Program-made: the position numbers and the translations under genes
The notes under the pieces: generated by a model
What the model was told of the DNA's origin: nothing
Seen by the model: the letters and a program-made list of their open reading frames with translations, nothing else
The model's database searches: none
Origin: Mesorhizobium sp. PAMC28654
GTDB taxonomy: Bacteria; Pseudomonadota; Alphaproteobacteria; Rhizobiales; Rhizobiaceae
Reading direction: 5' to 3'
Assembly: GCF_020616515.1 (NCBI RefSeq)
Contig: NZ_CP085135.1
Span: forward strand, 2,542,001 to 2,606,000
Length of the DNA stretch: 64,000 nucleotides
In this document: positions 13,146-41,373 of the stretch, one piece after another
Position numbering within the stretch: position 1 is the stretch's first letter
Layout: the number at the start of each line of letters is the position of its first letter

Positions 13146-14588
13146 TCAGGCATCGAGCCATGGCGTGGTATCCTCGACCGGGACCCTGGCAAGCTTTGGA
13201 TCGGACGGTCGCCGTGCCACGAACTGCCCGTGCCCCGGGCCCGTGCTGAGGACTTCATCGGTGACCACTGGCACACCTCGGACAAGCACCGTCATGGGCT
13301 TTCCAACCACTTTTCTGCCCTCATATGGAGTGAAGTCGACGCGGGAATGGAGCACGGCGTGGCCAAGTTCCCATGTCCGAGCAGGATCCCACAGCACAAG
13401 GTCGGCATCGAGCCCGACGGCAATACGACCTTTACAGTGATCAAGGCCATAAATCGCGGCGGCGTTGCGCGAGGTGAGATCGAGATAACGTCCGAGCGTC
13501 AGGCGTCCGGCAAGCAGTCCTTCTGAAAACAAGAGCGGCAATCTGGTCTCGATTCCCGGAATGCCGCTCAACGTGGTGTTGAACGCGGGCGTGCCGGATT
13601 TCCCCAGTTTGTCGGCGAAGAAATATGGCGAATGGTCCGAAGACCAAAGGTCGATGCCGCCATCCGCGAGGGCCTGCCACAGATGATGTTGGCTGCGAGG
13701 GGAACGCGGCGGCGGCGAGAACACAAAACGGGCGGCATCCCGTGGTGGCTTGTCAAGATCCGACGCGCCGAGAAAGATGTATTGCGGACAGGTCTCGGCG
13801 GCGACTTCGACGCCACGCAGGCGCGCCCGTGCGACCTCCTCGGCGGACTGGATCGAGGAGACATGCACGATCGTCATGCGCGTTCCCGTCATTTCCGCCA
13901 GGGCGAGTGCCCGATGCGTCGCTTCCCGCTCCATGATCTCGCTGTGCGCGACCGCATGGTAGCGCATCTCGGTGCGTCCGAGGTCAATCAGCTTCTGCCG
14001 CGTCCGCCGGATCGCCGCGTCGTTCTCGGCATGCACCATGACGACCCAGCCCAGCCTGCGCGCGGCATCAAGAACGGTGAGGAAGAGGTCGTCGTCCACG
14101 GCGAACCCGTCATATGTCATGAACAGCTTTACCGACGCGATGCCTCGCCCGGCCAATTGCTGAAGTTGCCCGTCGACGTCCACGCCGGTGCCAGCGGTGA
14201 CCACGCCATGCAGGCTATAGTCGACGATCGATCTTCCCACCGCGCGGGCCATCGCCCGGTCCATTGCTCCGATTGTCGTCATGCCAGGGCCGGGCATGCC
14301 GAACGGAACGATGCAGGTGGTTCCGCCAAACGCCGCCGAGACTGAGCCGGATTCGAAATCGTCTGCGTTTCCGGCACTGCCCCAGACGGGCTGATCGAGA
14401 TGGCAGTGTGTATCAATGCCGCCTGGCATCACCCATCTGCCGCGTGCGTCGATCGTTTTCGCGCCTTGCAAACCGTTGCCGGTCGCGGCAATGCGGCCGT
14501 CCGTGATGCCGATGTCGCATTCGGCCCAGCCATCATCGAGCGCGACCCGTCCGCCGCGAACAACAAGATCATACATGCCGGACCTCAT
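13146..14588 (-). CDS. dihydropyrimidinase/hydantoinase-like amidohydrolase
   Basis: Zinc amidohydrolase of 480 residues in the D-hydantoinase branch, which opens cyclic ureides such as dihydropyrimidines or hydantoins to N-carbamoyl acids. The binuclear site is complete: DTHCHLD (HxH), Lys in ASVKLFMTYDG for carbamylation, His in VMVHAEN, His in TIVHVSS and Asp in SSDHSPYF. The start at 14588 has GAGGA ten bases upstream; ATG at 14576 is also possible. It lies 69 bases downstream of the demethylase gene on the same strand and is probably co-transcribed with it. The pairing suggests an N-methylated cyclic amide substrate. Allantoin or dihydrouracil cannot be excluded. Confidence 0.88.
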   Translation of the reverse strand: MRSGMYDLVVRGGRVALDDGWAECDIGITDGRIAATGNGLQGAKTIDARGRWVMPGGIDTHCHLDQPVWGSAGNADDFESGSVSAAFGGTTCIVPFGMPGPGMTTIGAMDRAMARAVGRSIVDYSLHGVVTAGTGVDVDGQLQQLAGRGIASVKLFMTYDGFAVDDDLFLTVLDAARRLGWVVMVHAENDAAIRRTRQKLIDLGRTEMRYHAVAHSEIMEREATHRALALAEMTGTRMTIVHVSSIQSAEEVARARLRGVEVAAETCPQYIFLGASDLDKPPRDAARFVFSPPPRSPRSQHHLWQALADGGIDLWSSDHSPYFFADKLGKSGTPAFNTTLSGIPGIETRLPLLFSEGLLAGRLTLGRYLDLTSRNAAAIYGLDHCKGRIAVGLDADLVLWDPARTWELGHAVLHSRVDFTPYEGRKVVGKPMTVLVRGVPVVTDEVLSTGPGHGQFVARRPSDPKLARVPVEDTTPWLDA

Positions 14589-14657
14589 AGGATATCGATC
14601 CTCGATTGCCCCCAAGTGACGACATCCGCCAGCCGCCGGCAAGCGTTGCCTCGTGAC

Positions 14658-17078
14658 CTACGCCCTCAGCCGCGTCCCGTCCGGATCGAAAGGCGGGCGA
14701 TCCAGCAGGACAGCACTATGCGGCTGTCCAAGGATCGCCACCGTGACGGCGTCACCCGACTTCGCCATGCCAGCCTTCACATAGCCAAGCGCCAGGGACA
14801 TCCCCACCGAATATCCGTAGGCGCCAGACGTCACTTGTCCCACCGGCGTGCCGTCGGGCAGGAAGATCGGCTCGCCGCCGGTTGCATCGGCGCTGTTGGC
14901 CTCGATCGAGATCATGATGAGTTCGTCTCGCGACGGCTTGCCGGCGATCTCGATGTAGGCGTCGCGATTCAGGAAATCGCCCTTGTCGAGCTTGATCAGA
15001 CGATCGAATTTGACCTCTTGCGGCCAATACTCCGGCGAATATTCGCGGCCCCAGCTGCCATAGCCTTTTTCCACCCTGAGCGACATGAGCGCGCGCGAGC
15101 CGACCAGACCGCCGCCTTCCTGGCGGGCTGCGTCAAGCAGCGCCATGTAGAGCGCAATCTGATCCTTCTCCTCGCAGTAAAGTTCCCAGCCAAGATCACC
15201 CGTGAAGGACACACGCAGGGCAACGACCTCTATCCCCGCGACCGTGATGCGGCGTGACGCCATGAACGGGAAGGATGGCGTCGTCAGGTCGGCGTTCGTG
15301 AGCCGCTGCAGCACCGCCCGTGAGCTTGGTCCGGCAACGTTGAAACCGCACAGCTCATTTGTCACCGAGCGGAATGTGGTGCCCTCCGGCAGAGGCACCA
15401 TGTTGAAGAAACGCTGATGGTAGCGTTCCGCCATGCCCGAGCCAAACACTCGGAATTCGTTCTGGCCGAGCCTCGTCACGGTAAAGTCGCCAGCAATGCC
15501 GCCGCGCCTGCCGATCAGCGGCGTCAGGCACGACTTGCCTATCGAGACGGGGATCTTGTTTGCGAACAGGCCGTTCAGCCACGCCTCGGCGCCAGGCCCC
15601 TTCACCTCGTATTTCGCAAAATTCGAGATGTCGATGATCCCGACCTTCTCACGCAGCATGCGTGCTTCGCGGCCAACGGGCGCCCACCAGTTCTGCCGGG
15701 TAAACCCGATGGTCTCCTCGCGCGGCTCGCCGTCGGCCGAAAACCACAGCGGATGCTCCCAGCCGAAATTGAGGCCGAACACGCCACCCATTTCCTTTTG
15801 CATGGAATAGGCCGGGCGGGTGCGCACCGGCCGCCCGGCGGCGCGCTCTTCGTTCGGGAAATGGATCTTGAAGCGGTGGCTGTATTGGTCCTGTACGCGT
15901 GCCTTGGTGAAGGCCTTATCGGCCCAAGCACCGAAGCGCGCCAGATCCCAGGCGAACATATCGAGTGTCGGTTCGCCCTCGATCATCCATTCGGCAGCAA
16001 GGCGACCAAGGCCGCCTGATTGTGAAAAGCCAGGGATGATGCCGGCGCAGCAGAAGTAGTTGCGCAGCTCCGGAATTGGGCCGAACAGCGCCGCGCTGTC
16101 GGGCGACCATATCATCGGGCCATTGATGACCCTCTTGACACCAGCCAGGCCGACCGCCGGCACGCGAGCGATGGCGCGCAACATGTTCTCCTCGATGCGC
16201 TCGAGGTCGTCGGGGAACAGCTCGTGGCCAAAATCCTGCGGCGTGCCGTCCTCGGCCCAGAACTTCATGGCCCGCTCATAAGCGCCGACCAGCAGGCCAA
16301 GACCCTCCTGACGCAGATAGTATTCGCCGTCGCGATCGGCGACCGACGGCAATCGCCGGCCCATTGCCGCGATCTCCGGAATGGTCTCGGTGACAAAATA
16401 CTGATGCTCCGTCGGGATCAGCGGAAGCTGAAGCCCCGCCATGGCGCCGACCTCGCGCGCCCACAGGCCGGCGGCATTGACGACCCATTGGGCGTGAACG
16501 TCACCTTTCGTCGTGCGCACGGTCCAGCTACCATCCGGCCGCTGCTCGGTGCCGGTCACCGCGGTGAACCGATGGATTTCGGCTCCGCGCTGACGAGCGC
16601 CGGCGGCGTAGGCGGCGGTCACGCCGGACGGATCGACGTTGCCGCCCTCCGGCTCGTACATGATGCAGCGTATTCCGTCGAAGTCGACCAGCGGATGCAG
16701 CCTCTCGGCCTCGGCGCGATCGACTTCATAGAAATTCATCTTGTAGCGGCGAGCCTTTGCCTCCTGCAATCTGAGCTGATGCTCGCGCGCTTCTGTCTGG
16801 GCCAGATAGAGGGAGCCCGGCTGGAAGATGCCGCAGCCCTGGCCGGTTTCCTTCTCCAACTCCTTGTAGAGCGCCATCGTGTAGTGTTGCAGGCGGCTGA
16901 TGTTGGTGGAGTCATGCAGGCCGTGGATGTTGGCCGCCGCGTGCCAGGTGGAGCCGGACGTCAGTTCGTCGCGCTCGAACAAGACGACGTCCGTCCAGCC
17001 ATGTTTCGCAAGGTGGTAGAGGATCGAACATCCGATCAGGCCGCCGCCGATCACTACAGCCTGTGCATGTGTTCGCAT
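14658..17078 (-). CDS. dimethylglycine/sarcosine dehydrogenase-like FAD oxidoreductase with GcvT domain
   Basis: A flavoprotein of 806 residues that should oxidise an N-methyl group and pass the one-carbon unit to tetrahydrofolate. The N-terminal dinucleotide fold VVIGGGLIGCS (residues 8-18) is followed by SGSTWHAAA, where His46 matches the covalent FAD histidine of dimethylglycine dehydrogenase. A DAO domain spans about residues 5-370, followed by FAO_M, GCV_T (about 430-690) and a GCV_T C-terminal barrel. The ATG at 17078 is chosen over a longer frame because AAGGGG lies close upstream and the dinucleotide fold then begins at once. It diverges from the transporter operon across a 523-base control region. 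Confidence 0.88.
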   Translation of the reverse strand: MRTHAQAVVIGGGLIGCSILYHLAKHGWTDVVLFERDELTSGSTWHAAANIHGLHDSTNISRLQHYTMALYKELEKETGQGCGIFQPGSLYLAQTEAREHQLRLQEAKARRYKMNFYEVDRAEAERLHPLVDFDGIRCIMYEPEGGNVDPSGVTAAYAAGARQRGAEIHRFTAVTGTEQRPDGSWTVRTTKGDVHAQWVVNAAGLWAREVGAMAGLQLPLIPTEHQYFVTETIPEIAAMGRRLPSVADRDGEYYLRQEGLGLLVGAYERAMKFWAEDGTPQDFGHELFPDDLERIEENMLRAIARVPAVGLAGVKRVINGPMIWSPDSAALFGPIPELRNYFCCAGIIPGFSQSGGLGRLAAEWMIEGEPTLDMFAWDLARFGAWADKAFTKARVQDQYSHRFKIHFPNEERAAGRPVRTRPAYSMQKEMGGVFGLNFGWEHPLWFSADGEPREETIGFTRQNWWAPVGREARMLREKVGIIDISNFAKYEVKGPGAEAWLNGLFANKIPVSIGKSCLTPLIGRRGGIAGDFTVTRLGQNEFRVFGSGMAERYHQRFFNMVPLPEGTTFRSVTNELCGFNVAGPSSRAVLQRLTNADLTTPSFPFMASRRITVAGIEVVALRVSFTGDLGWELYCEEKDQIALYMALLDAARQEGGGLVGSRALMSLRVEKGYGSWGREYSPEYWPQEVKFDRLIKLDKGDFLNRDAYIEIAGKPSRDELIMISIEANSADATGGEPIFLPDGTPVGQVTSGAYGYSVGMSLALGYVKAGMAKSGDAVTVAILGQPHSAVLLDRPPFDPDGTRLRA

Positions 17079-17601
17079 TTCGCGTTTGTCCCCTTGGGCA
17101 GACAGCCAGGATTCATTTTCAAAGAGGGGTCGGATGCGCAGCATTCTGAGCGCATGGGCTTGGTTGTGTCCAAGCCCATGACCCCGCTTTTTCGAGTGTG
17201 GGCAATCTAGGTAGCCCGCCAAAAGCATGTAAAGCCTGCGTTTGAGGCTAAATGCCGCTTTTGCAGGCATAGAAGGCCAAAAAAAACGAAGTCATAGCCA
17301 CGTCAATCTTCGTTTGTGAGCCTACAAACGAAGTGTAGCCTTTCGGTGGGGAAAACGAGCAGCCGCGTGTCAGCGGCGCCGCCAATGGGAGCCTCCGAAA
17401 TGAACGCGAGTTCCGTGCCAAGAGACGGAGACTTTTCGTTTCGCACAGCACGCATCGCGTCGCTCAAGCGACCAGGAAGCCTTGTTGCACGTCTCTGCGC
17501 GAGCAGACGGCACACTCGTATCCGCACAGCAACTCGACGTCATGTAGCAGACAATATGGCTTACCCAACAAGCGCAATGCGACAACTCGGAGGTCAAGAC
17601 C
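17079..17601. other. divergent control region between demethylase and transporter operons
   Basis: No gene is recognised in these 523 bases. The part 17200-17340 is A-rich relative to its surroundings and contains the dyad listed separately. An AAACGAAG half-site at 17284-17291 repeats one arm of the dyad. The transporter start is preceded by GGAGGT at 17589-17594. Confidence 0.5.
17308..17333. promoter_or_regulatory. candidate operator, 9-base perfect dyad with an extra half-site
   Basis: CTTCGTTTG (17308-17316), eight bases, CAAACGAAG (17325-17333). The arm sequence AAACGAAG occurs once more at 17284-17291, giving three regularly placed half-sites between divergent operons. The regulator is unknown. 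Confidence 0.5.
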
Positions 17602-19275
17602 TTGGATAAGAAATCGCATCCCTACATCCCGACACTTCTCGGCCAGTTGAACGAGGGGGCTATCAGCCGCAGGGATTTCCTGCGCAGGTCGACGCTCCTC
17701 GGTATGTCGGCCACCGCCGCCTATGCGATGGCCGGCATGGTCGATCCGTCGACGTCAGCCAAGGCTGAAAACCTGCCCAAGGGCGGCAATCTGCGCATTG
17801 GCATGCGCTGCATGGAGATCAAGGACCCGCATCTCGCCGATTTCGCCGAGAAGTCGAACGTCGTGCGTCAGGTCTGCGAATACCTGACCATCACCGACCG
17901 AAACAACATCACGCATCCCTACCTTTTGGAAAAGTGGGATGTGAGCGATGACCTGAAGACCTGGACGCTGCATATCCGCAAGGACGTGAAGTGGCGCAAG
18001 GGCCGCTCGCTTACCGCCGACGACGTCATCTGGAATCTCAAACGGGTCTGCGATCCCAAGGTCGGCTCCTCGATGCTTGGCCTGTTCACCGGCTATCTGG
18101 TCGAGGAATTCGCGACCGGCGAAAAGGACGACAAGGGCAATCCCAAGAAGTCGAGCCGGCTCTGGTCGGAGAAAGCCATCGAGAAGGTCGACGACCATAC
18201 GGTTCGGCTGAACACGTCTTCTCCGCAGATCGCGGTCGCGGAGCATCTTTTCCACTATCCGATGTTCATACTCGACCCGGAGGAAAACGGCTCCTTCGGC
18301 GCTGGCGCCAATGGCACCGGCCCGTTCGAGATCGTCGAATACACGGTCGGCAAGGGCGCGAAATACAAGGCGCGCACCGATTATTGGGGTGACGGTCCTT
18401 ATGTCGACACCTTCGAGTTCGTCGACCTTGGCGACAGCCCGGGCGCCGGCATCGCGGCAATGGCTTCCAAGCAGGTCGATGGCCTTTCGGAAGCCGACGC
18501 GGTTCAGATCAATTCGATGAAATCCTTTCCGCACGTCGCGGTCTACAAGGTTGAAACGACCCAGACGATCGTCGCGCGCATGCATCCCGACGTCGACCAG
18601 TTCAAGGACAAGCGCGTGCGTCAGGCGATGCGCCACGCCATCGACCGCGACAAGGTGATCCAGACCGTATTGCTCGGGGCCGGCACCCCCGCGGAGGATC
18701 ACCACGTCGCGCCATCGCATCCTGAATATGCGGCCCTGCCGAAATACGGCCGGGACATCGACAAGGCGAAGAAGTTGCTCGCGGATGCCGGGTTCCCGGA
18801 CGGCTTCGAATACGACATGGTCACCCGCCCCGATCCGATCTGGGAGCTCAACACCGCCCAGGCGCTGGCTGAGCAATTCAAGGACATCGGCATCAAGGTC
18901 AACATCAAGTCGCTGCCGAGTGCTCAGTATTGGGAAGTGTGGACGGACGCGCCTTTCAGCCTCACGGCCTGGGGTCACCGTCCGCTGGCCATCATGACGC
19001 TTGGCCTTGCGTACCGCTCGAACGCGGCGTGGAATGAATCGCATTTCTCGAACGCCGAATTCGACACGCTGCTCACCCAGGCCGAGGGAATCCTCGATCC
19101 AAAGGAGCGCAGCAAGGTGATGGCCAAGATCGAAACCATCATGCAGGACGAAGGGCCGATCGTGCAGCCTTTCTGGCGCATCTTCTCCACGGTGATGGAC
19201 AAGAAGGTGAAGGGCTTCGACCTGCATCCCTCGCAGTACATCTTTGCCCACAACTACGCTGTTGCAATGGCCTGA
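17602..19275 (+). CDS. ABC transporter substrate-binding protein, family 5 (peptide/opine type), Tat signal
   Basis: Periplasmic solute-binding protein of 557 residues, SBP_bac_5 family (DppA/OppA-like). Translation appears to start at TTG 17602, seven bases after GGAGGT. A twin-arginine signal SRRDFLRRS lies at about residues 22-30 and ends before AKAENLPKGG. The usual features WTLHIRKDVKW, TADDVIWNLKRV and GTGPFEIVEY are visible. It is the first gene of a long plus-strand operon. With demethylases and ring hydrolases around it, a small zwitterionic or N-methylated compound is more likely than a true peptide. Confidence 0.88.
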   Translation: MDKKSHPYIPTLLGQLNEGAISRRDFLRRSTLLGMSATAAYAMAGMVDPSTSAKAENLPKGGNLRIGMRCMEIKDPHLADFAEKSNVVRQVCEYLTITDRNNITHPYLLEKWDVSDDLKTWTLHIRKDVKWRKGRSLTADDVIWNLKRVCDPKVGSSMLGLFTGYLVEEFATGEKDDKGNPKKSSRLWSEKAIEKVDDHTVRLNTSSPQIAVAEHLFHYPMFILDPEENGSFGAGANGTGPFEIVEYTVGKGAKYKARTDYWGDGPYVDTFEFVDLGDSPGAGIAAMASKQVDGLSEADAVQINSMKSFPHVAVYKVETTQTIVARMHPDVDQFKDKRVRQAMRHAIDRDKVIQTVLLGAGTPAEDHHVAPSHPEYAALPKYGRDIDKAKKLLADAGFPDGFEYDMVTRPDPIWELNTAQALAEQFKDIGIKVNIKSLPSAQYWEVWTDAPFSLTAWGHRPLAIMTLGLAYRSNAAWNESHFSNAEFDTLLTQAEGILDPKERSKVMAKIETIMQDEGPIVQPFWRIFSTVMDKKVKGFDLHPSQYIFAHNYAVAMA

Positions 19276-19355: not shown

Positions 19356-20366
19356 ATGGCGATATTCCTGGCGAAGCGGTTTACGATGATGCTGCTCACC
19401 ATGATTGCCGCATCGTTCCTGGTTTTCGCCGTCTGCGAATTCACGCCCGGCAGCGTCGCGCGCAAGTCCCTGGGTCCCTTCGCGACGCAGGAGGTCGATC
19501 TTCTCACCAGGAAGCTGAAGGCGAATGATCCCCTGCTCGTGCGCTATGGCCGCTGGGCAGGGGTGCTTCTCGGCGTCATCCCCGATCCGCTGCAGGATCC
19601 GGACACCGGCCTCAATTTCAAGGATTCGCGCGGCGCCCAATATTTTGGAAATTTCGGCTATTCGACGCTGAACAAGCTGCCGGTCAACGACGTGATCTGG
19701 GACAGGCTCGGCAACACCGCCATTCTTGGCGGCCTGGCATTTCTGTTGATAGTCCCTCTCTCGATCATCTTCGGCATCTTTTCAGGATTGAAGGAGGGCG
19801 GCGTGCTCGACCGCGTCCTGTCGATCGTTTCCATCACCTTCACCTCGATCCCGGAATTCGCCTCGGGCGTGTTCCTGGTGACGCTTTTCGTGATCCTGTG
19901 GCCAGTGTTGCCGGGCACCAGCCCGCTTGACACTGGAAGCGGCTGGTCGATCCCCTCGCAACTGGTGCTGCCCGTTGCGGTGCTGGTCATCTACGACTTC
20001 GGTTACGTCGCGCGCATGATCCGCGTCTCGATGATTGGCGTGATGGAGAAGCCCTACATCCGCACGGCCGTCCTGAAAGGCATGACCACCCGACAGGTCG
20101 TGCTCGGCCACGCGCTGCGCAACGCAATGATCGCGCCGTTCACCGTTCTCCTGCTGCAGATCAATTTTCTGATCAGCGGCGTTGTCGTCACCGAACTGGT
20201 CTTCGCCTATCCCGGCTTCGGCCGGCTTCTCCTCGACGCAAGCCTGTTCGGCGATATCGCGACGATCGAGGCGGCGACGCTGATCACGGTCGCCATCGCG
20301 GTGGTCACCCAATTCATCGGCGACATTGGTTACATGTTGCTCGATCCGCGCATAAGGTTGAGATGA
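19356..20366 (+). CDS. ABC transporter permease, DppB type
   Basis: Inner-membrane permease of 336 residues. The N-terminal helix MAIFLAKRFTMMLLTMIAA is typical of DppB/OppB proteins. The large periplasmic loop after helix 1 is followed by five more helices, and the EAA-type loop (MIRVSMIGVMEKPYIRTA) should contact the ATPase. The next permease begins inside its stop codon (ATGA). Confidence 0.9.
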   Translation: MAIFLAKRFTMMLLTMIAASFLVFAVCEFTPGSVARKSLGPFATQEVDLLTRKLKANDPLLVRYGRWAGVLLGVIPDPLQDPDTGLNFKDSRGAQYFGNFGYSTLNKLPVNDVIWDRLGNTAILGGLAFLLIVPLSIIFGIFSGLKEGGVLDRVLSIVSITFTSIPEFASGVFLVTLFVILWPVLPGTSPLDTGSGWSIPSQLVLPVAVLVIYDFGYVARMIRVSMIGVMEKPYIRTAVLKGMTTRQVVLGHALRNAMIAPFTVLLLQINFLISGVVVTELVFAYPGFGRLLLDASLFGDIATIEAATLITVAIAVVTQFIGDIGYMLLDPRIRLR

Positions 20367-21244
20367 GCGTACTGGCCGAGCAGAATGTGATGGACGCAGG
20401 GGCCGCGACTGCCAAAAGCGCGAAGCGCCGGAAGTGGACGCAGATCCTGCGCTCCCGTACCGCGATGGTCGGCCTCTTTCTGATAAGCTTCTGGGTCCTG
20501 GCAGCGCTGCTCGCGCCAATCCTGCCCCTTTATTCGCCAACCGAGCAGGACGTCATGGCCATGGCCGATCCAACGCCGTCGGCAGCCCATTGGCTGGGCA
20601 CCGACATCCTCGGACGGGACTTGCTTTCACGCCTGATATTCGGAGCCCGAACCGTGCTTGTCGTGGCACCGCTTTCGGTCGCCGTAGCCATGATTGCCGG
20701 CATCACGATGGGGATGTTCGCGGGCTACTATGGCGGCTGGATCGATGCCGTGATCAGCCGCTTCTCCGATATCGTCCTCGCCTTTCCCGTACTCGTTCTC
20801 TACGTCATCCTGATTGCCAACATTGGACCGTCCGTACTCAACATCGTTATCGCCACGACGATCGCTTCAGCGCCGGGCATAGGCCGCATCACGCGCGGCC
20901 TGGTGCTTGGCCTGAAGGAGCAGGAATACATCGCCGCGGCCAGACTGCGCGCCGAAAGCACGCTCTACATCATGGTGGTGGAGCTCTTGCCGAATTGCCG
21001 CAACATGCTGATCGTCGATGCCTGCCTGCGTATCGGCTACACGATCATCACCATCGGCATACTGGGCTTTCTCGGCCTCGGCCTGCCGCCGCCCAATCCC
21101 GACTGGGGAGGAATGGTCAAGGAAGGCACCACGGTGCTGAATGTGTGGCCCCTGATGTCGCTGGCGCCTTCCATCGCCATCGTCAGCCTGGTGCTCGGCT
21201 TCAACCTTCTGGCCGACGGGCTGCGGGAGGCCTGGAAGCCATGA
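20363..21244 (+). CDS. ABC transporter permease, DppC type
   Basis: Second permease, 293 residues, with the N-terminal OppC_N region and the motif WLGTDILGRDLLSRLIFGAR found in almost all DppC proteins. The EAA loop reads QEYIAAARLRAES. It overlaps both neighbours by four bases (ATGA), so the whole importer is translationally coupled. Confidence 0.92.
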   Translation: MSVLAEQNVMDAGAATAKSAKRRKWTQILRSRTAMVGLFLISFWVLAALLAPILPLYSPTEQDVMAMADPTPSAAHWLGTDILGRDLLSRLIFGARTVLVVAPLSVAVAMIAGITMGMFAGYYGGWIDAVISRFSDIVLAFPVLVLYVILIANIGPSVLNIVIATTIASAPGIGRITRGLVLGLKEQEYIAAARLRAESTLYIMVVELLPNCRNMLIVDACLRIGYTIITIGILGFLGLGLPPPNPDWGGMVKEGTTVLNVWPLMSLAPSIAIVSLVLGFNLLADGLREAWKP

Positions 21245-29468: not shown

Positions 29469-29575
29469 GCTGGCTGCGACGCTCTTCGACCAGCTCGAAT
29501 TGCGCTGCCGTCGACCCCCTCCGGACCCGGCGGAGAGCAACGTTGGCATTGCGCTCCGCCAGCTTCAGCAAGGGA

Positions 29576-32083: not shown

Positions 32084-33050
32084 TCAGTAGCCACGCGTCG
32101 GATCGACGACGTTTTCCAGCGGTTCGCCGCGCCGATAGCGGGCCAGGTTATCCGCGAACATCCGCACCGACTTGACATCCCAACCGTCGTAGACGGACGA
32201 ACAGTGCGGAGTGATGATCACGTTGTCGTAGCCCCACAAGGGATGGTCGGCCGGCAGCGGCTCGGTGGCGAAGACATCGAGCGCCGCACCCCTGAGCCGG
32301 CCGGCTTCGAGAGCCTCGACAAGGGCTGCCTCCTCGACCACGCCGCCGCGAGAGACGTCGATCAGAACAGCGGTCGGCTTCATCGCGGCAAACGCCTGTC
32401 GATCAACCAGCCCGCGCGTCGTCTCCAGGAGCGGCACGCAGCAAACGATGAAATCGGCGCGCGCAGAGCGCCGGCAAGTCACTGATGCCGTGGACCTCAT
32501 CGACATTCGCGGTGGACCTCGGCCGGGCCCGGGCGCCGAGCGTCACCATGCCCATCGCCTTGGCGCGGCGGGCCACGGCCTGTCCGGTCCTGCCAAGGCC
32601 GAGGATCAGCAATGTGCGCCCTTCGATGGGTACGACGCTACCCGCGCTCCACCGCCGCGCCTGCTGGTCGCGGGCAAAGCCCGGAAAGCCCAGCGAGAAG
32701 GACAGCATCGCTCCCAGCGCGTATTCGGCCATCATGTCGGCAGCGACCCCAGCCGCGTTGGTCACCGTGACCTTGGCCGGATCCCACGGAAGCAGGTGAT
32801 CGGTACCCGAGCCGCCGACGGATACCCATCGCACGGTCGGACTTTCCAGGAGCGCCCTGCGCGGAAACAGCGGCGTTCCGGAAAAGCGCACGGAATAGAC
32901 GACCTCCGCGCCGGTGCTGGCTATCATGTCGGCCAATCCGCCATAGCTGTCGCAAGCCGTGACCCGGAGATCAGGATGCCTCTCCGCCAGCACCGCGAGC
33001 GCGGATTCCGGCCTGTCGCTGTGAACGATGATCGACGGGTGGCCGGCCAT
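32084..33050 (-). pseudogene. D-isomer 2-hydroxyacid dehydrogenase with an internal frameshift
   Basis: NAD(P)-dependent 2-hydroxyacid dehydrogenase of about 320 residues. The first frame gives the N-terminal half and the cofactor motif LGLGRTGQAVA; the second frame gives CVPLLETTRGLV, the catalytic-region DVSRGGVVEEAAL, FATEPLP and ITPHCSS with the catalytic His. They join near 32464-32467, where two bases appear missing or one is extra within GCTCTGCGCG. The ATG at 33050 sits just downstream of the DapA-like stop. If the break is real, the enzyme loses its catalytic half. Confidence 0.8.
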
Positions 33051-33054
33051 GGTT

Positions 33055-33972: not shown

Positions 33973-34559
33973 CGATGCTTCTCCCTTGATGTTCTTTCAC
34001 CGGCGGCCTGCTTGGCCGCAAGGATGACCGTCCTGACGAAGAAGGCGGTCGCCGCAATGTCGAAAAACACGTCGAATCCCTCCCCGGCCCTCACAAGGAC
34101 TGCTTCGAGTTGAGCGACGCGGGTCTGCGCGATCTCGTCTTCGTGCAATCGTCCGGCGCGCAGATCGAGCACGCAAAGCCTTGCCATGACGCCGTTGACG
34201 GCTGGCCCGGACAGCCGCATCCAGGCCCAGCCCTCCTCGCGCCACGACCAGTAGCCGCGCGGACCGGTCGTATTGTTCCAGCGGGCCGTGAGCGCGTCCA
34301 ATTCGCCGTCGACGACCAGGAAATCCTCGCTGCCGAGCCGCAGCACGCGCAGGTCGCCATGCCCGCTTATCCGGTTCACGGGCGGCAGTGTGATGCCGCA
34401 TCCTTCCAGCCAGGCGGAACTGCCCGGTCCCTTGATGCCGAAGCGGGGCTCCGCGGTCAGGTCGACCAGTTCGACAGCGCCGTTCGGCAGGCTGATGTGC
34501 TGCGCGGAGCCGCCGGTGGACAGCGGAAACTGACGCAGAGATAAAGGCAACGAGATCAT
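33969..34559 (-). CDS. soxG: sarcosine oxidase gamma subunit
   Basis: Small subunit of heterotetrameric sarcosine oxidase, 196 residues, GcvT-like fold. Motifs such as RFGIKGPGSSAWLEG and VLRLGSEDFLVV fit the family, and the C-terminal FDVFFDIAATAFFVRTV is the usual end. ATG 34559 lies one base after the soxA stop. It completes the B-D-A-G set that oxidises sarcosine to glycine, with methylene-tetrahydrofolate and peroxide formed. Confidence 0.88.
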   Translation of the reverse strand: MISLPLSLRQFPLSTGGSAQHISLPNGAVELVDLTAEPRFGIKGPGSSAWLEGCGITLPPVNRISGHGDLRVLRLGSEDFLVVDGELDALTARWNNTTGPRGYWSWREEGWAWMRLSGPAVNGVMARLCVLDLRAGRLHEDEIAQTRVAQLEAVLVRAGEGFDVFFDIAATAFFVRTVILAAKQAAGERTSREKHR

Positions 34560-34560
34560 C

Positions 34561-37414
34561 CTAGAGTTCCTGCCGCGCGTTCTCTGGATCGAAGAAGGCA
34601 TGCATGACCACGGGAGCGCTCACCAGTTCGCCGTCGCGGCATTTTATGGTGACCAGGCTGCCCTCGGCCGCGTCATCGACATGGACATAGGCGAGCGCGA
34701 TGTGGTGGCCGAGCGTCGGTGAAAAGCCGACCGAAGTGACCTGTCCGACCGGCACCCCGCCGCGCAGCACGAGGCAGCCTTCGCCCGGTACGTTCGTGGC
34801 GTCCGCGAAAGTCAGCCCGACCAGCCTGCGTGCCTGGCCGAGACGCGCCCGCATCTCGATCGAGCGCTTGCCGACGAAAAACGGTTTTCGTCTCGACACC
34901 GCCCAGCCGAAACCCAGTTCATCCGGGCAGGTCAGCGCGTCCGTGTCCTGGCCGATGAGGATGTGGCCTTTCTCCAGGCGAAGGATGCGCGATGCCTCGA
35001 GGCCGTAGGGGCGCAGCCCATGCGATCCGCCTGCCTCGATCACCGCATCCCACAGCGCGCCGGCATAGCTGGACGGACAATGCAGCTCGTAGCTGACCTC
35101 CCCGGTGAAACCGATACGCATGACACGCACCGGAACTCCGGCAAGCATGCCTTCGTGGCCGGACAGATAGCCGAACGCCTGCCTTGAAAAATCGATGTCG
35201 CCATCCATCGCCTGCAGCAAGACGCGCGCGTTCGGCCCGGTGACATTGAGCCCGGAAAACGCCGCGGTGACGTTGAGCACGTCGACCTTCAGCCGCCATT
35301 GAGCGTTCCAGAACAGCATTTCCGCCTGGACTCTGGCAACCGCGCCCGTGGTGGCGGTGACGTAGAAGCGATCGTCGGCCAGGCGGTAGGCGACGCCATC
35401 GTCGATCACCGCGCCCATCTCGTTCAGCATCAGGCAATAGCGCACGCGGCCGACGGGCTGGCCGGCATGGGCCATGGTGTACATGCGGTCGAGGAAGGCG
35501 CCGGCATCCGGTCCTCGCACTTCCAGCTTGCCCAGCGTCGATACGTCGAGCACGCCGACCGCCTGTCGCACGGCCGCGATCTCTTCGCGCACAAGCCGCT
35601 CGGCATCGACGTCCGCTCCGTAATGGTAGGGCCGCCACCAGGCACCCACCGGCTTCATGCGGGCATTAACAGCCAGATGCCGCGCGTGGAGCGCGGTCCG
35701 CCGTTCGAGCGGCTCATGATGGCCGGCAAGCACACCAAGCGTTTCCGGGCCTGTCGGAGGCCGCGCGGTGGTAACGCCGACGGCACCTACGCTGCGGCCG
35801 GTCGCCTCGGCGACGATCCTGGCTGTCGCCAGCGCCGAATGGCGACCTTGGCTTGGCCCCATGGCCACCGTCGAAAACCGCTTGACCAGTTCCAGTTCGC
35901 GATAGCCTTCCTTCACCGTGTTCAGCAGGTCGTTGACCTGCAGGTCCTCGTCGAAGTCGATGAAGTCATGTCCCTTCGGATCGGCAGCGATGGGCTGCGC
36001 CCAGCCTTTCGGCTCCGTATCGATATCAACCGCCGCTGCGTCGGAGCGGACCACGTGGCCGAGGCGGGCCAGTGCGTCCAGCCCCGCGCGGCGACCATCC
36101 GCGATTGCCGCATCGAGGCTCGACCTGCCCGCGACCGCTCCCGCCAGCAGCACCGAGCCATGATCCATGGTGAGCTTCATATTCGCCGACTTCTCGTCGT
36201 AGCCGACCTTGGCTCCGGCCTGGCACGGCAACTGCCAAGCTGGCACCGCGCCAGCAGAGATGACCACGAGATCGCAGTCGATCCAGCGGCCTTCGATGCG
36301 GACGCGCGCGACATGTCTGTTGGCCTTGGTGCCCTGGGCCTCGGCGATGGCTGCGCCCTGCATGATTTCGACGCCCCTGGCTTGCAGCGCCTTGGCCAGG
36401 TCGCCGTCATTGCCTGTCGGCCTCGGATCGGCTAGCACCGCGACGGCAACGCCCGCATCGATGAGGTCGAGCGCGGCATGATAGCCGGCGGGATTGGCGG
36501 CGAGCACGACGGCGCGCCGGCCGGGTTTCACCGCATAATGCCGGATCAGCCGCTGCACGGCCCCGCCGGTCATGATGCCCGGCAGGTCGTTGTTGCGGAA
36601 CAGCGCGGGCTGCTCGATCGCGCCGGTTGCGAGAACCACTTGCCGGGCGCGGGTCCGATAGAGCCGGTCGCCCTGGATCAGCGGCAGCCAGTTGTCCTCA
36701 TACCAGCCGTTGCAGACCGTGCCAGGCAGAATGCGCAAGTTGGGAAGTGCCACCACTGCAGCGGCCAGCCGCGCCAGCACGTCCGGCCCGCAGCGGCTGT
36801 AGGTCAACGAGCCGCCGATTTCCGGATTTTCGTCGCACAGAACGACATCCGCCCCGGCCTCGGCGGCGGCGATACCCGCCGAAAGCCCGGCCGGCCCGGC
36901 GCCGACGACCAGCAGGTCGCAATGGAGATGCGCCATGTCGAAGTCGCGATGCGGAGCCTTTGCATCGATCATGCCCAAGCCCGCCCTGCGGCGGATCATC
37001 GGCTCCCAGACTCTCAGCCACGCGTTGCGCGTCGGTCCCATGAACGTTCGATAATAGAAGCCGACCGGCAGCAGCTTCGCGAACCGGCCAATCAGGGCAT
37101 CGCGGTCGGACTGAAGCGAGCCGTTGACGTTCTGCGCCGTCACCTTCATGCCGTCGCGCAACGGCGTCAGGTCCGCCGCCACGTTCGGCTCGGACGTCAA
37201 TTGCACCAGTGTGTTGGCCTCGGCCCCGGCCATGCTGAAGACGCCGCGGGGCCGATGATTTGAACGAGCGTGACAGCAGCCATTGCCCCGACGCCCCCAG
37301 CGCGCTGGCGATGCAATCGCCCTCGAAGCCCTCGAACGCCTTGCCTTCGAAGCTGAAGCGAAGCGCCCGACCGCGGTCAATGCGCGAGCCAAAAGGTTCG
37401 GGCAGCCGGCTCAC
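34561..37414 (-). pseudogene. soxA: sarcosine oxidase alpha subunit, early frameshift
   Basis: Large subunit, about 950 residues when repaired. The first frame (GTG 37414) gives SRLPEPFG and the Fer2-like start up to SRSFK. Near 37258 the frame slips within AAATCATCGG and the second frame continues with HRPRGVFSMAG and the rest. The dinucleotide motif VVGAGPAGLSAG, a second NAD site region, and C-terminal GCV_T and GCV_T_C domains (from about residue 570) follow to 34561. Two missing bases (a Tyr codon reduced to T) would restore SFKYHRPRG. The GTG overlaps the repaired soxD stop in a GTGA. As written only about 50 N-terminal residues or an N-truncated protein could be made. Confidence 0.85.
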
Positions 37415-37679
37415 GGCCGGCCTTCGTCGTTTGGCGCGTAGGTGCGGATGATCTGATCTCGTTGGTCACCAGATTGCGTTCGGCCAGAAAGAAGAAGTTG
37501 CTCGGCACGTGGCGCCACCATTCCACCCCCATACCCTTGCGGTTGTCGGCCCTGAACAGGTGGCGCGCCCATTCGGCGTCGCTTGATGCATCGGGATCGG
37601 GTGCGGCCCGCACCGGCCCGAGCGACTGGAATTCGTCGATGTTGCGCGGTCCGTTCATCGGGCAGGTGAGCAGCTTCAT
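37411..37679 (-). pseudogene. soxD: sarcosine oxidase delta subunit, late frameshift
   Basis: Zinc-binding delta subunit, about 90 residues when repaired. LLTCPMNGPRNIDEF and DAEWARHLFRADNRKG are family hallmarks; the second Cys of the usual CPxCG is replaced (CPMNG). Up to LVTNEI the frame is normal; one base lost near 37452-37456 shifts it. The alternative frame gives IIRTYAPNDEGRP and a stop at 37411 that overlaps soxA GTG as GTGA, the coupling expected in this operon. As written, the product has a wrong tail and reads on to 37377. Confidence 0.8.
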
Positions 37680-37683
37680 GATG

Positions 37684-38925
37684 TCAATGACTCGCAGCCG
37701 TGGCGCCCATTTCGTTGAGCAGCCGGAAAGTCTCGAAGCGCTCCAACGCGAACGGCTTCAACACATCGGGAACGCTGCCCCTAGCGATCGTCTCGGCCAT
37801 GCGCTTGCCGGCGACCGCAGTGGCCTTGAACCCCCATGTACCCCAGCCGCAGTCCAGCCAGAGGTTGGCGAGTGGGCTGGCGCCCATGATCGGGCTGTAG
37901 TCGGGCGTCATGTCGGTGATCCCCGCCCATTGCCTGAGGAGCTTGACCCCTTGCAGAAAGGGGAACAGATGCACCGCGCCCGCCGCCAGATGTTCCTTCA
38001 TGTCGAGCGTCGAGCGGGTCGAGTAGAGCTGGTAGGGATCGGAACCGCCGCCGATGACGATCTCGCCGCGCGAGGACTGCACCAGATAGGTGTGCAGCGA
38101 AACCGATGAGACCAGCGTATCGAGCCAGGGCTTCAGCGGCTGGGTCACCATCGCCTGCAGCGGATAGCAACGGATCGGCAGTTCGATCCCGGCCATCAGC
38201 GCGACATCGTAGTTCATGCCGCCGGCGGCGATCAGCACCGCGCCGCAAGCGATGCGGCCGCGGTTCGTCACCACCGTCTTGACTCGGTCGGCGGCCACTT
38301 CGACGCTCTGCACTTCGGTGCGCTGATGGATTTCGGCGCCGCGCCGCGATGCCTGCGCGGCAAAGCCCCAGGCCACCGCGTCGTGCCTGGCCGTGCCCCC
38401 ATCGGCGTGCCAGAGCCCGCCCAGGACTTCGAGCGCGCCGCCACGATCCATGTTGAGTTGCGGCACGATCTCCTCGACACCCCTCGGGTCGACGACTTCG
38501 GTGCGTGTTCCCATATGTTTGCCTATCTCGGCCCGCAGGTGGAAGCTGCGCAGCGTCGCCTCCGAATAAGCGAGCGTCAGTTGCCCGCGCTGCGAGAACA
38601 TGACGTTGAAATCCAGTTCCTGCGACAGGCCCTGGAACAGGGAAACACCCTCCTTGTAGAAGGCGACACCCTCCGGCGTGATGTAGTTGGAGCGGATCGT
38701 CGTGGTGTTCCGCGCCGTGTTGCCCCCAGCCAGGTAGCCCTTCTCCAGCACGGCGATGCTGGTGATGCCGTGGTATTTCGACAGATAATGCGCTGACGCC
38801 AGCCCGTGGCCGCCGCCGCCGATGATGACCACGTCATAGGATGGCCTCAGCTCCGGCGTCGCCGGAATATCCCCCGTCACCGGATAGTCCTTGCTGAATC
38901 CGTATTTGAGCAGGCTAAGCGGCAT
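37684..38925 (-). CDS. soxB: sarcosine oxidase beta subunit
   Basis: FAD/FMN-binding subunit of 413 residues carrying the amine-oxidising site. The cofactor fold VVIIGGGGHGLASAHYL lies at about residues 34-50 and TARHDAVAWG contains the conserved His region near the flavin. The late motif SPLANLWLDCGWGTWGFKATA is typical. The ATG at 38925 lies inside the end of the PrpD-like gene, so the two are coupled; the longer upstream frame is only a shadow of that gene. Confidence 0.9.
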   Translation of the reverse strand: MPLSLLKYGFSKDYPVTGDIPATPELRPSYDVVIIGGGGHGLASAHYLSKYHGITSIAVLEKGYLAGGNTARNTTTIRSNYITPEGVAFYKEGVSLFQGLSQELDFNVMFSQRGQLTLAYSEATLRSFHLRAEIGKHMGTRTEVVDPRGVEEIVPQLNMDRGGALEVLGGLWHADGGTARHDAVAWGFAAQASRRGAEIHQRTEVQSVEVAADRVKTVVTNRGRIACGAVLIAAGGMNYDVALMAGIELPIRCYPLQAMVTQPLKPWLDTLVSSVSLHTYLVQSSRGEIVIGGGSDPYQLYSTRSTLDMKEHLAAGAVHLFPFLQGVKLLRQWAGITDMTPDYSPIMGASPLANLWLDCGWGTWGFKATAVAGKRMAETIARGSVPDVLKPFALERFETFRLLNEMGATAASH

Positions 38926-40315
38926 GATGGCGCTGGCCGGCGGGAGGATCGTAGAGCAGAACCGCGAGGTCGCTGAACCGGCTGCCGGGCGCCGCAAGGT
39001 CGAGAATGCCGTCGCGGATCGCCCTTGCCCGCGCCTCGCCCAGCACCGGAGCGGCCAGCTCCATGTATTTTGCCTCGATGTCGTCGGACGTGAACGGCGC
39101 CTCGGGTCCGCCACGCGCATGCACGTCGCCGGAATCGAGCACCCGACCGTCCACCGTCTCGATGCTGACATCCGCCCAGCGCCCTTGCGGAAAGCGGGCG
39201 CTGTGTCGAGGCGATTCAGTCACCTCGACGCGCTTGAGCATCGCCGCGACGGCCGCGTCCTGGAGACCGGCACCTGAGATATGCTCCAGGCCGACGCGGC
39301 CGTGCACGACCATGGTGGCGACCGCGAACGCCAGGCTGTACTGCGCCTTCGACGTGGTGTCGGGCATGCCGGCGAACAACGTAGCGGCGTGGTGAAAGCT
39401 GTTGACCCGTACCCTGGCGACCTGCTCCGGTCCCACGCCATGCTCCAGACAGAGAGCACGTGTCCCGTCGATTGCCGCATGCGCCCAGCGGCATACCGGA
39501 TACGGTTTGATATACTGGCGCGACATCTGCCAGAAGCTTCCGAGGTCGTCCCAGTGGTGCGCCACGTCCGGCGCTTCCAGGGTGATGGCCGGCGCACCGG
39601 CGAAGCCGAGCTCAGCGAGCACCGCCGCCGAAAGGCCGACCAGCGCTCCCATGCCCGACCCATCGTGCAGCATGGTCGGCGTTGCGATCTCGCGCATCAT
39701 CTGGCTGCGCGGCCCGTGATACTCCGCGATGCCGAAGGCATGGCGGAGTTTCTCGTCGCCGAGGCCAATGAAGCGCGAGGCCATGGCAGCCACGCCGAGC
39801 GCATTCCAGGCCCCGGACGTATGGTAGTCCGAAACCGTGGCATGCAACGCTATGCCGGCGCGGCCAGCGATTTCGTAGCCGATGACGATGGCGGCCAAAG
39901 CCTCGGGTCCGCCGAGATCGGGGGCTGCCTCGGCAAGCGCCGCCAGCGCCGGGATGACCGCCACGCCGATGTGCCCCTTGGTCGGGCTGTAGCCGTCATG
40001 ACCGTCGAGGTTATCGGTTTGGGTGGCGGCCGCGAAGGCGGCCCCAGCCAAGCTTACGCGGCGGCCGTCGAACAGCATCCGCGCCGCATGCCGGTCCTCG
40101 CCGGCGCCGTAGAGCAGCACGGCCGCATCTCGCGCGATCCGCCCTGCCTCCATTGGTCCGGCAGCGATCGTGACGCCAATCGTATCCAGGAATTGCAGCG
40201 ATGCCGCCCGCAATATTTCATCCGGGAACTGGGTAGCGGGTCTGCGCAGCACGAAATCCGCAATCCTGGCGGTAATCTCGCAAACAGCGGCGGCCTCTTC
40301 GGGCTGATCGACCAT
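38915..40315 (-). CDS. MmgE/PrpD-family protein
   Basis: Member of the 2-methylcitrate dehydratase-like superfamily, 466 residues, first gene of the minus-strand operon. Typical features are DTIGVTIAAG, NLDGHDGYSPTKGHIG and KPYPVCRWAHAAID. Family members range from methylcitrate dehydratase to iminodisuccinate epimerase and cis-aconitate decarboxylase, so the reaction cannot be named; dehydration or isomerisation of a branched acid or ureido acid is conceivable. ATG 40315 is preferred for its GAAGG ribosome site; an in-frame GTG lies at 40324. Confidence 0.85.
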   Translation of the reverse strand: MVDQPEEAAAVCEITARIADFVLRRPATQFPDEILRAASLQFLDTIGVTIAAGPMEAGRIARDAAVLLYGAGEDRHAARMLFDGRRVSLAGAAFAAATQTDNLDGHDGYSPTKGHIGVAVIPALAALAEAAPDLGGPEALAAIVIGYEIAGRAGIALHATVSDYHTSGAWNALGVAAMASRFIGLGDEKLRHAFGIAEYHGPRSQMMREIATPTMLHDGSGMGALVGLSAAVLAELGFAGAPAITLEAPDVAHHWDDLGSFWQMSRQYIKPYPVCRWAHAAIDGTRALCLEHGVGPEQVARVRVNSFHHAATLFAGMPDTTSKAQYSLAFAVATMVVHGRVGLEHISGAGLQDAAVAAMLKRVEVTESPRHSARFPQGRWADVSIETVDGRVLDSGDVHARGGPEAPFTSDDIEAKYMELAAPVLGEARARAIRDGILDLAAPGSRFSDLAVLLYDPPAGQRHHAA

Positions 40316-40361
40316 TGACGCCACCTTCGCGCATCTCCCCCGTCGTGAGCCCTATGATTAA

Positions 40362-40410
40362 TTTGGCCTCGTGGCCCATTCACGTCATAAGTTTGGCGCC
40401 ATTGGCCAAA
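40362..40410. promoter_or_regulatory. candidate LysR operator, two TTTGGC/GCCAAA-like dyads
   Basis: TTTGGCC-TCGT-GGCC at 40362-40375 and TTTGGC-GCCATTG-GCCAAA at 40392-40410 lie between the divergent lysR gene and the PrpD-sarcosine oxidase operon. The positions fit a primary binding site plus an activation site of a LysR regulator. Confidence 0.5.
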
Positions 40411-40485
40411 AAAATCGATGTCACCCGGTTCGACGCGCTATAAGCTCCCTGTTCCCGCCGTGATCGTCGACCGGAAAAAATCGCG

Positions 40486-41373
40486 ATGAAGCCACCGCCC
40501 CCACTCAACTATATCCGTTCGTTCGAATGCTCGGCCCGACACCTGAGCTTCACGCTCGCCGCCAATGAGCTGGGCTACACGCAGGCGGCTGTCAGCAACC
40601 ACGTCCGGGGGCTGGAACACTATCTCGGCCGGCAACTGTTCATCCGCTATCCTCGCAGTCTCAAGCTGACCGAGATGGGCGAGGCATTCCTGCCGACACT
40701 GCGTCAGGCTCTCGACCTGATCGACCATGCAACCGAGGCAATCGTGGCCTCGGCCCGCAACAAGACCGTGGTCATCTCGTGCCCAATGAGCCTTGCGGAA
40801 AACTGGATCGCAGGATGCATGGCCGCATTTCGCAATCAGCACCCAGAGATCGAGGTCGTCCTGCACGGCACGATCTGGGAAGACCTCAGCGAGCAGATCG
40901 CGGATATCACCATCTCGACGCGGCGCTTCGACGATCGCCCCCCGGCTGGTGTTCCGCTGTGGAACGATCAACTGGTTCTGCTGTGCGCTCCGCAATTGAT
41001 GATGGGGGCGAACCGGCTCAAGTCGCCGCAGGATATCCTGCATATGGACTGGATCTTCGTTCACGGAAGACAGGAGTACTGGCAGTGCATGGGTGAAGCG
41101 CTTGGTATCGATATCTCGGACTATGAAAAGGGAATAACCACGAACGCTTCGAACATCGCGCTGGAATTGGCGGCAAGGGGCGCCGGCTGTGTCGCGACCC
41201 AATATTCGCTCGCCAGAACCTACCTGAGCCGCGGCCTTCTCGTCGAACCGTTTCCTGTCCGCACGGCAAGCCCCTGGACCTATTACCTGTCAGAAAGCCA
41301 GCTGTCGAAGGGGAGCGTCGTCAAAACCGTCAAGAATTGGATCCTTGGACAGGCGAAAATAGACGTCGCTTAG
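40486..41373 (+). CDS. LysR-family regulator, GcvA-like
   Basis: Transcriptional regulator of 295 residues. The N-terminal helix-turn-helix reads LSFTLAANELGYTQAAVSNHVRGLE, and the effector domain follows from about residue 90. The short proline-rich start and the FECSARHLSF motif place it in the GcvA group. It diverges from the minus-strand catabolic operon with two dyads between them, so it is the probable local activator, perhaps sensing a glycine-like or methylated-amine intermediate. Confidence 0.9.
   Translation: MKPPPPLNYIRSFECSARHLSFTLAANELGYTQAAVSNHVRGLEHYLGRQLFIRYPRSLKLTEMGEAFLPTLRQALDLIDHATEAIVASARNKTVVISCPMSLAENWIAGCMAAFRNQHPEIEVVLHGTIWEDLSEQIADITISTRRFDDRPPAGVPLWNDQLVLLCAPQLMMGANRLKSPQDILHMDWIFVHGRQEYWQCMGEALGIDISDYEKGITTNASNIALELAARGAGCVATQYSLARTYLSRGLLVEPFPVRTASPWTYYLSESQLSKGSVVKTVKNWILGQAKIDVA

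Follow-up and report, generated by a model that had tools for sequence, protein, structure and literature searches.

A co-inherited gene block in Mesorhizobium brings a D-hydantoinase and an altered allantoinase-like protein together with probable N-demethylation genes

Hydantoinases are used in industry; an article of 2012 (PMC3546935) called their natural function still unclear. A 28-kb block in the genome of Mesorhizobium sp. PAMC28654 raises the question of what such an enzyme does next to candidate genes for N-demethylation. The block lies within a 64-kb stretch of the single-contig, 6.70-Mb genome (hereafter the window, whose numbering is used throughout), and its genes form three arms: a minus-strand pair, hyd and dmg; a plus-strand middle arm running from a solute-binding protein (SBP) gene to the gene of the oxidoreductase SDR2; and a minus-strand arm from a lactonase-like gene to prpD, which converges from the right and is accompanied by the divergent lysR. 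A sequence-only reading had taken these arms for the complete pathway of one N-methylated cyclic or ureide-like compound, meeting at one divergent control region, one LysR region and one convergent end. All three regions exist, namely the divergent regions dmg/sbp (17082-17601) and prpD/lysR (40325-40485) and the convergent end SDR2/lactonase (~29466-29575). The block is very probably one co-inherited and co-controlled unit. About even weight is given to its being a modular catabolic island whose enzymes would open the ring of a hydantoin-class ureide and remove N-methyl groups from a betaine-type moiety of that ureide or from a partner compound.

Inheritance was followed in 146 genomes of the genus, with alln (the altered allantoinase-like gene of the middle arm) counted at an identity of at least 67% and prpD at least 73%. 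prpD was found in 44 genomes and alln in 42; both occurred in 42, in 41 of these on the same contig, and the two genomes with prpD only were G026, which has a split alln, and a draft of 79% completeness. Four more genomes held an alln of 52-54% identity without prpD. A Fisher test of the co-occurrence ignores relatedness and was not used as evidence. When classified by distance and orientation, 4 arrangements were window-like, 12 short and 25 long, with 1 on split contigs. Likewise, MttB at 84% identity or more and PuuE at 80% or more were found in the identical 12 of 37 same-genus genomes, the own genome included. In all ten relatives examined over 60-80 kb, one block holds hyd, dmg, mttB, the hydroxyacid dehydrogenase gene, dapA, prpD, lysR, mfs, sdr1, the epimerase-like gene, puuE, alln and sdr2; an eleventh relative, G007, was examined over 20 kb only. 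The lactonase gene adjoins dmg in four of the ten, and the SBP, permease and ATPase genes of the window had no match of at least 45% identity in the stretches of the eleven. One relative, G010, carries between mttB and hyd the genes of an isochorismatase-fold protein, an allantoate/carbamoyl-amidohydrolase-family protein, an FAD enzyme, an FrhB-like protein and an N-carbamoyl-D-amino-acid hydrolase, and a second SBP gene between dmg and lysR. The nitrilase-fold gene of the relatives is a D-carbamoylase gene (340 bits vs 80 for the next family).

The genes are thus inherited as a block, and a rare element is common to both of its divergent promoter regions. The 11-base GGCCAAAAAAA has three copies in the 6.7-Mb genome: one at 17275-17285 (plus strand) between dmg and sbp, one at 40404-40414 within a TTTGGC-N7-GCCAAA dyad (40392-40414, plus strand) between prpD and lysR, and a third at the start of an unrelated-looking reading frame. 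The 10-mer GGCCAAAAAA is found twice in the window, at 17275 and 40404, against an expectation of 0.05, and two copies were obtained in 0 of 100 shuffles. All 11 relatives have a match to GGCCAAAAAA in the hyd/mfs divergent region, and five of them match GGCCTAAAAA just past the lysR end; neither sequence was found in 180 kb of other DNA from this genome. At the prpD/lysR site a conserved block is present in all ten relatives aligned, with the core GGCC (six) or GACC (four) followed by AAAAATAT. Relative to dmg, the 17275 copy is upstream by 194 bases if the assumed start is taken and by 5 bases if the longest open frame is taken. In the same region, a perfect 10-bp inverted repeat, CTTCGTTTGT-N6-ACAAACGAAG (17308-17333, no strand), is a candidate operator, and a perfect 11-bp inverted repeat, CATGGGCTTGG-N6-CCAAGCCCATG (17153-17180), lies near the dmg start. 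The product of lysR (40486-41373, plus strand; PF00126/PF03466) is GcvA-like (PRK11139, 210 bits, below the cut-off of 288) and is the probable regulator of the locus. By its block inheritance and the rare shared element, the locus behaves like one regulon in the genus.

As to what the unit does, ring opening of a hydantoin-class compound is likely. The product of hyd (13146-14588, minus strand) exceeds the cut-off of the curated D-hydantoinase model (TIGR02033, 441.5 bits vs 393.25), scores 335 bits against solved D-hydantoinases and keeps the complete HxH, K, H, H, D set of metal ligands, located in motif columns as H61, H63, K154, H186, H242 and D318. The PuuE-like amidohydrolase of polysaccharide-deacetylase fold (26413-27354, plus strand) is a full-length homologue of the solved PuuE allantoinase 3cl6 (248 bits); it differs from that enzyme in falling below the curated PuuE model TIGR03212, and two further PuuE-like proteins, 37-39% identical to it, are encoded elsewhere in the genome. 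The alln product (27329-28690, plus strand) remains below the curated AllB model (TIGR03178, 286.1 bits vs 357.85), and its AlphaFold model (pLDDT 92) superposes on allantoinase and L-hydantoinase structures (3hm7, 1gkr) with TM scores of 0.87-0.93. It departs from that fold family at the carbamylated-lysine and two histidine positions, which are E154, S189 and Q242.

This change was traced in a metal-site alignment of 34 of 66 sequences (65 named loci plus the window). All 34 have E at the lysine position and Q at the second histidine position, the first histidine position is S in 33 and Q in one, and HxH and D are retained; the E/S/Q signature for K/H/H is complete in 33 of the 34 rows. Among four distant relatives aligned alongside, none has lost either histidine; one has the lysine, and three have a gap at its position. 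These features assign alln to an allantoinase-like subfamily with a changed metal site, and we infer that the protein may hold one metal by HxH, E and D or may be a non-catalytic partner. The hydantoinase-type hydrolase, the PuuE-like hydrolase and the altered allantoinase-like protein of the sequence-only reading were all recovered. Ordinary allantoin or purine catabolism was rejected, since the PuuE and AllB models are not reached and the genome holds other PuuE-like genes, and so was an ergothioneine/hydantoin-propionate route (ErtD, 245 bits vs a cut-off of 650). A PuuE-hydantoinase-alln trio also occurs in some Mesorhizobium (L133:1773-11371; L135, L138); in L133 its neighbours, as seen by eye, are a regulator of LacI type and an ABC importer of ribose type, and these would point to a variant with a sugar-like ligand.

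The N-demethylation candidates were examined in the same way. dmg (14658-17081, minus strand; longest open frame extending to 17270) encodes a dimethylglycine-dehydrogenase-like FAD/tetrahydrofolate enzyme, with the DAO, FAO_M, GCV_T and GCV_T_C domains of dimethylglycine dehydrogenase (DMGDH) over its full length. Its closest matches are true DMGDH (4pab and 5l46, 623 bits), from which it differs in a genomic context that includes a hydantoinase. MttB (30522-32063, minus strand), a methyltransferase without pyrrolysine, reaches the gathering score of the MTTB superfamily (PF06253, 687.8 bits), and its closest solved relatives are 4yyc (a putative trimethylamine methyltransferase), 2qne (a putative methyltransferase) and 9yce (a glycine betaine methyltransferase). 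A pyrrolysine-type trimethylamine route was rejected on the curated score of TIGR02369. The full sarcosine oxidase that had been proposed stands in part, all on the minus strand: SoxB-like beta (37684-38925; DAO), SoxD-like delta (37377-37679; PF04267, 70.5 bits) and SoxA-like alpha (34561-37400, frame break ~37250; PF17806, GCV_T) belong to the expected families, but alpha and beta stay below their cut-offs, and the SoxG-like protein (33969-34553), gamma by position only, has no NCBIfam match at E≤1e-20 and no Pfam match. The SoxG-like gene adjoins soxA in eight of the ten relatives.

The locus yielded no corrinoid protein gene, and the two PF02607 matches of the genome both lie elsewhere. 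Besides a MetH-sized protein there is one, with MtgC as the best model (209 of 370 bits, below cut-off), encoded 2.4 Mb away together with a RACo-type activator, a pterin-binding protein, MTHFR, DUF5981, DUF1638 and another MttB (L166:941-12532; genome ~118.9-130.5 kb). Glycine betaine demethylation in Ruegeria pomeroyi is assigned to MtgB-MtgC-MtgD, RamA, DUF1638 and MetF2 (PMC12478193), and the match of the distant corrinoid, RACo, pterin-binding, MTHFR and DUF1638 genes to this set was counted in favour of demethylation. An MTTB-family protein and genes of these corrinoid, pterin-binding, activator, MTHFR and DUF1638 types are present in both genomes; the locus differs from R. pomeroyi in that its MttB sits with hydantoinase-class genes and without a corrinoid gene, and the MtgC and TIGR02369 cut-offs are not reached by the proteins of this genome. 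At ~6.458-6.470 Mb of the same genome, an SBP5-type transporter, an MttB (67%) and a DMGDH-like protein (50%) form a second betaine-type cassette (L069:13081 to L070:4907), and MttB at 64-67% identity was seen in 35 of 37 same-genus genomes.

The remaining genes agree with the family assignments of the sequence-only reading, including a peptide-type importer with fused ATPase and an MFS protein. On the plus strand follow the SBP5-family SBP (17602-19275; PF00496), two ABC permeases (19356-20366, PF00528; 20363-21244, PF00528 and OppC_N), a double ABC ATPase (21241-23325; two ABC_tran and two oligo_HPY stretches), the MFS transporter (23322-24575; PF07690), SDR1 (24566-25378, frame break ~25265), an extended SDR of the epimerase/dehydratase family (25375-26400; PF01370) and, beyond puuE and alln, SDR2 (28697-29465, frame break ~29400). 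The minus strand adds an SMP-30/gluconolactonase-like protein (29576-30481; PF08450), a D-2-hydroxyacid dehydrogenase (32084-33152, frame break ~32465; PF02826 across two frames), a DapA-family lyase/aldolase (33055-33972; PF00701) and the MmgE/PrpD-family protein PrpD (38915-40324; PF03972, PF19305).

Taken as one route, these proteins would act as follows. The LysR protein may bind the GGCCAAAAAAA element, and the SBP5 importer, the MFS protein or both would take up a small cyclic ureide of the hydantoin class, which the D-hydantoinase and the PuuE-like enzyme would open to N-carbamoyl products. In many relatives a D-carbamoylase would remove the carbamoyl group and an FAD enzyme would oxidise the product; this window has no locus genes for these two steps. 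Stepwise demethylation would act on a trimethylammonium or dimethylamino group carried by the ureide itself or by a partner compound: MttB would pass a methyl group to the MtgC-like corrinoid protein encoded 2.4 Mb away, after which the DMGDH-like and SoxBDAG-like enzymes would bring further ones to methylene-tetrahydrofolate. Processing of the carbon skeleton could fall to the hydroxyacid dehydrogenase, DapA, PrpD, lactonase and SDR proteins. That the methyl groups sit on the hydantoin-class compound itself is given slightly less than even weight.

Outside the genus, a scan of named genomes with alln returned 102 relatives, of which 80 were kept: 65 full-length (at least 47% identity), 2 partial and 13 distant (28-33%). 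Within the fetched flanks of the 65 full-length loci (up to 10 kb per side), a PuuE-type gene is present in all 65 and a hydantoinase-type gene in 60; the five loci without the latter come from Mesorhizobium of the window type (two) and from Ancylobacter (three), and further reading in two of these Ancylobacter located the gene beyond the flank. D-carbamoylase was found in 35 and a thiamine pyrophosphate (TPP) enzyme in 22 of the 65, never both within the flanks, and A. gelatini has both within ~13 kb. A compact middle arm with its own hydantoinase and TPP enzyme was found in Rhizobium, Phyllobacterium, Neorhizobium, Paracoccus, Caballeronia and Paraburkholderia. The core operon of R. johnstonii 3841 (pRL12) and Paracoccus aminophilus (pAMI1) has SBP, permeases, ATPase, MFS, SDR1, extended SDR, PuuE, alln and SDR2 in the same order as the window; it differs by a second hydantoinase, the TPP enzyme and a third SDR, and the stretches examined lack the demethylation and PrpD arms. 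In three plasmid records (R. johnstonii, Neorhizobium petrolearium and Paracoccus), a GlxA-family regulator precedes the middle arm and the third SDR follows it; the one such regulator scanned scored 300 of 480 bits against GbdR. The SBP of core operons in other genera is 78-85% identical to that of the window (R. johnstonii 84.5%, Paracoccus 78%), and this sequence identity suggests that the middle arm takes the same ligand across genera.

Ancylobacter presents a different combination. Within ~28 kb, A. amanitiformis carries an isochorismatase-fold gene, D-carbamoylase, hyd (56%), an ABC importer, an FAD enzyme, a Rieske enzyme and a reductase, together with a HisC-like gene, LysR (63%), SBP, carbL, hydroxyacid dehydrogenase, dmg (80%), alln and PuuE, and so unites members of all three arms (dmg; PuuE/alln; hydroxyacid dehydrogenase/LysR). 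Its Rieske enzyme scores 514 bits against the glycine-betaine-monooxygenase model GbcA (cut-off 670), and no MttB match was found in the 40 kb examined. A GbcA-like Rieske enzyme without MttB reads as the swap of one betaine demethylase for another, so that a Rieske oxygenase and a corrinoid MttB appear to fill the same slot in related clusters. In genome G019 (C121, L073:2385-19087), a 74% MttB stands beside a GbcA-like Rieske gene and sox-like genes, with folD and purU seen by eye.

Several observations weigh against a single pathway and are brought together here. The middle arm can stand apart from the others: it is alone in 37-40 kb of the three plasmid records, and the Rhizobium, Phyllobacterium, Caballeronia and Paraburkholderia genomes searched gave no prpD (E≤1e-60) and no dmg above 45%, with MttB searched in the flanks only. 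Whole-genome searches of 29 named genomes (28 of non-standard type and the window-type L087), which did not cover MttB, found prpD at E≤1e-60 in three (77, 49 and 45%) and dmg of at least 80% in three, with no dmg match at E≤1e-150 in eight. Neorhizobium sp. NCHU2750 has on a plasmid (L179:12714-22880) a stand-alone operon of SBP5 importer, hydantoinase (63%) and D-carbamoylase (80%), which also includes an amidohydrolase (65%) and an isochorismatase-fold gene (58%). Within the genus, the sox genes are in the locus of eight of the ten relatives and absent from it in the short-type G001 and G008, and were therefore dropped as an essential part. D-carbamoylase was found in 7 of 16 genomes searched (E≤1e-40) and in none of the four window-type genomes, the own genome among them; nor was a close carbL found in these four, the best being 44%, in one. 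Scores fall short for PuuE-like (TIGR03212, 277.8 bits vs 424.6), MttB (TIGR02369, the pyrrolysine-type trimethylamine methyltransferase, 307 vs 525), SoxA-like (TIGR01372, 786 vs 1164) and SoxB-like (TIGR01373, 449 vs 529), and relative G036, whose SoxA has no frame break, is still below the cut-offs (alpha 899/1164, beta 454/529). As for the promoter element, the 11-mer was picked after both sites were seen, and a backward-read control pattern of it has two copies in the genome. A weight matrix of the prpD/lysR site had no match in the dmg/sbp region, only the GGCCAAAAAAA core being common, and the relaxed element had no copy in the Ancylobacter stretch or in the three core-operon records searched and may therefore be genus-specific. 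This assembly breaks four genes, those of SDR1, SDR2, the hydroxyacid dehydrogenase and SoxA, into two frames each. The claim of one N-methylated cyclic or ureide pathway is thus partly supported: within the genus the arms are co-inherited and have a common element, but some loci are without the sox genes, and the middle arm occurs apart elsewhere. Gene order, one of the checks proposed for that claim, falls into three arrangement classes among the 41 genomes with alln and prpD on one contig, and some other genera hold the middle arm alone. Independence of the arms elsewhere, which had been named as the outcome that would speak against it, holds for the middle arm, but Ancylobacter joins members of all three.

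These observations would be explained if two separate pathways shared one address and one regulator, a ureide pathway (SBP to SDR2, and hyd) and a betaine or N-methyl-amino-acid pathway (MttB, DMGDH, Sox, DapA, dehydrogenase, PrpD) with different substrates, joined only in this genus. Rhizobium, Paracoccus and Caballeronia have the ureide arm apart, NCHU2750 has a free-standing hydantoinase/carbamoylase operon, and the genome of the window has an MttB-DMGDH cassette with its own SBP5 transporter at 6.46 Mb; such a division is possible, yet doubtful, given that Ancylobacter has another first demethylase in company with dmg, hyd, PuuE and alln and that all-or-none inheritance and a rare promoter element are common to the arms. 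Decay of the island in this strain to a non-functional remnant, marked by the four broken genes and the lost carbamoylase module, is quite improbable. The four split genes align in one frame in all seven relatives compared (G127, L087, L092, G010, G018, G004, G036), the dehydrogenase passing one stop in three of them, and this genome has no carbamoylase; but the window is short by one or two bases relative to G127 at all four break sites, and the dmg paralogue at 6.47 Mb is broken likewise, with another break in a nearby 130-aa reading frame. Similar breaks at that distance fit assembly indels, so assembly error is the more plausible cause at the four sites. The remaining enzymes, moreover, are intact, and three further genomes have the same spacing and orientation.

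Two known types of route were also weighed. A creatinine-type route, from N-methylhydantoin through N-carbamoylsarcosine and sarcosine to glycine by sarcosine oxidase, could draw on the hydantoinase and the Sox-like genes, and the relatives have a protein of carbamoylsarcosine-hydrolase fold (1nba, 60 bits). This isochorismatase-fold protein, however, resembles carbamoylsarcosine hydrolase no more than it does other members and has no match in the window, the Sox scores are below cut-off, and MttB, PrpD, DapA and PuuE would be left unexplained. The ATP dependence of the known N-methylhydantoin enzyme also counts against this route, which is judged very improbable. Breakdown of methylated purines of the caffeine type, with the PuuE-like and altered allantoinase proteins acting on methylated allantoins, would account for two allantoinase-class proteins, for the allantoate/carbamoyl-amidohydrolase-family protein in relatives and for a xanthine/uracil-type permease ~6 kb left of the locus (5389-6873). 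The scan of the locus proteins revealed no purine-oxidising enzyme, and such a route would yield methylureas, which are not expected substrates of DMGDH, MttB or Sox, making it extremely improbable. The preferred reading remains that of an island for ring opening of a hydantoin-class ureide and N-demethylation of its betaine-type part or of a partner compound.

The known hydantoin-utilization (hyu) clusters, as far as the accessible part of the source describes them (PMC3546935), resemble the locus in D-hydantoinase and in the D-carbamoylase near 35 of its 65 named relatives. They differ from it in three respects: this genome is without a D-carbamoylase, the N-carbamoylase of hyu clusters; the locus hyd is embedded with PuuE, the altered allantoinase, N-demethylases, PrpD and DapA; and no racemase was recognised among the locus proteins scanned. 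Among titles and abstract beginnings, no report was found that joins at least three of hydantoinase, sarcosine oxidase, allantoinase and trimethylamine methyltransferase or that describes this locus. Term searches of the accessible parts of PMC3333776, PMC8751395, PMC10418091 and PMC3925955 found no mention of the locus or its hydantoin-class genes, and no literature was found for old locus tags starting with pRL12010, pRL12011 and pRL12012, which may not be those of the locus.

The locus places a D-hydantoinase in a conserved context of importer, regulator and, in some genera, N-demethylases, and offers a testable natural role for hydantoinases; as the hosts include tractable Mesorhizobium and R. 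johnstonii 3841, the question can be addressed directly. It also defines the alln subfamily with its altered metal site, whose full-length named loci all have a PuuE-type gene close by, and presents a case of a corrinoid methyltransferase and a Rieske oxygenase apparently in the same slot. More tentatively, and with some doubt, the locus family may represent an undescribed pathway for a natural betaine-type ureide (a hydantoin-class ring with an N-trimethyl or N-dimethyl group), in which D-hydantoinase and D-carbamoylase would be physiological, MttB or Rieske interchangeable as first demethylase, and the alln subfamily, with its HxH/E/D metal site, a key step.

Around the locus, a CopA-like multicopper oxidase gene (below cut-off) and, as seen by eye, a MerR-type regulator gene adjoin the hydantoinase end (10988-13028), and an FMNH2-dependent alkanesulfonate monooxygenase gene above cut-off lies directly to the right (42964-44139). 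Further right are an integrase-core (rve) transposase-like gene (50105-51085), a second SBP5-type importer region with an M81 (MlrC-like) metallopeptidase (51895-58754) and a HipA-like gene (60424-61671).

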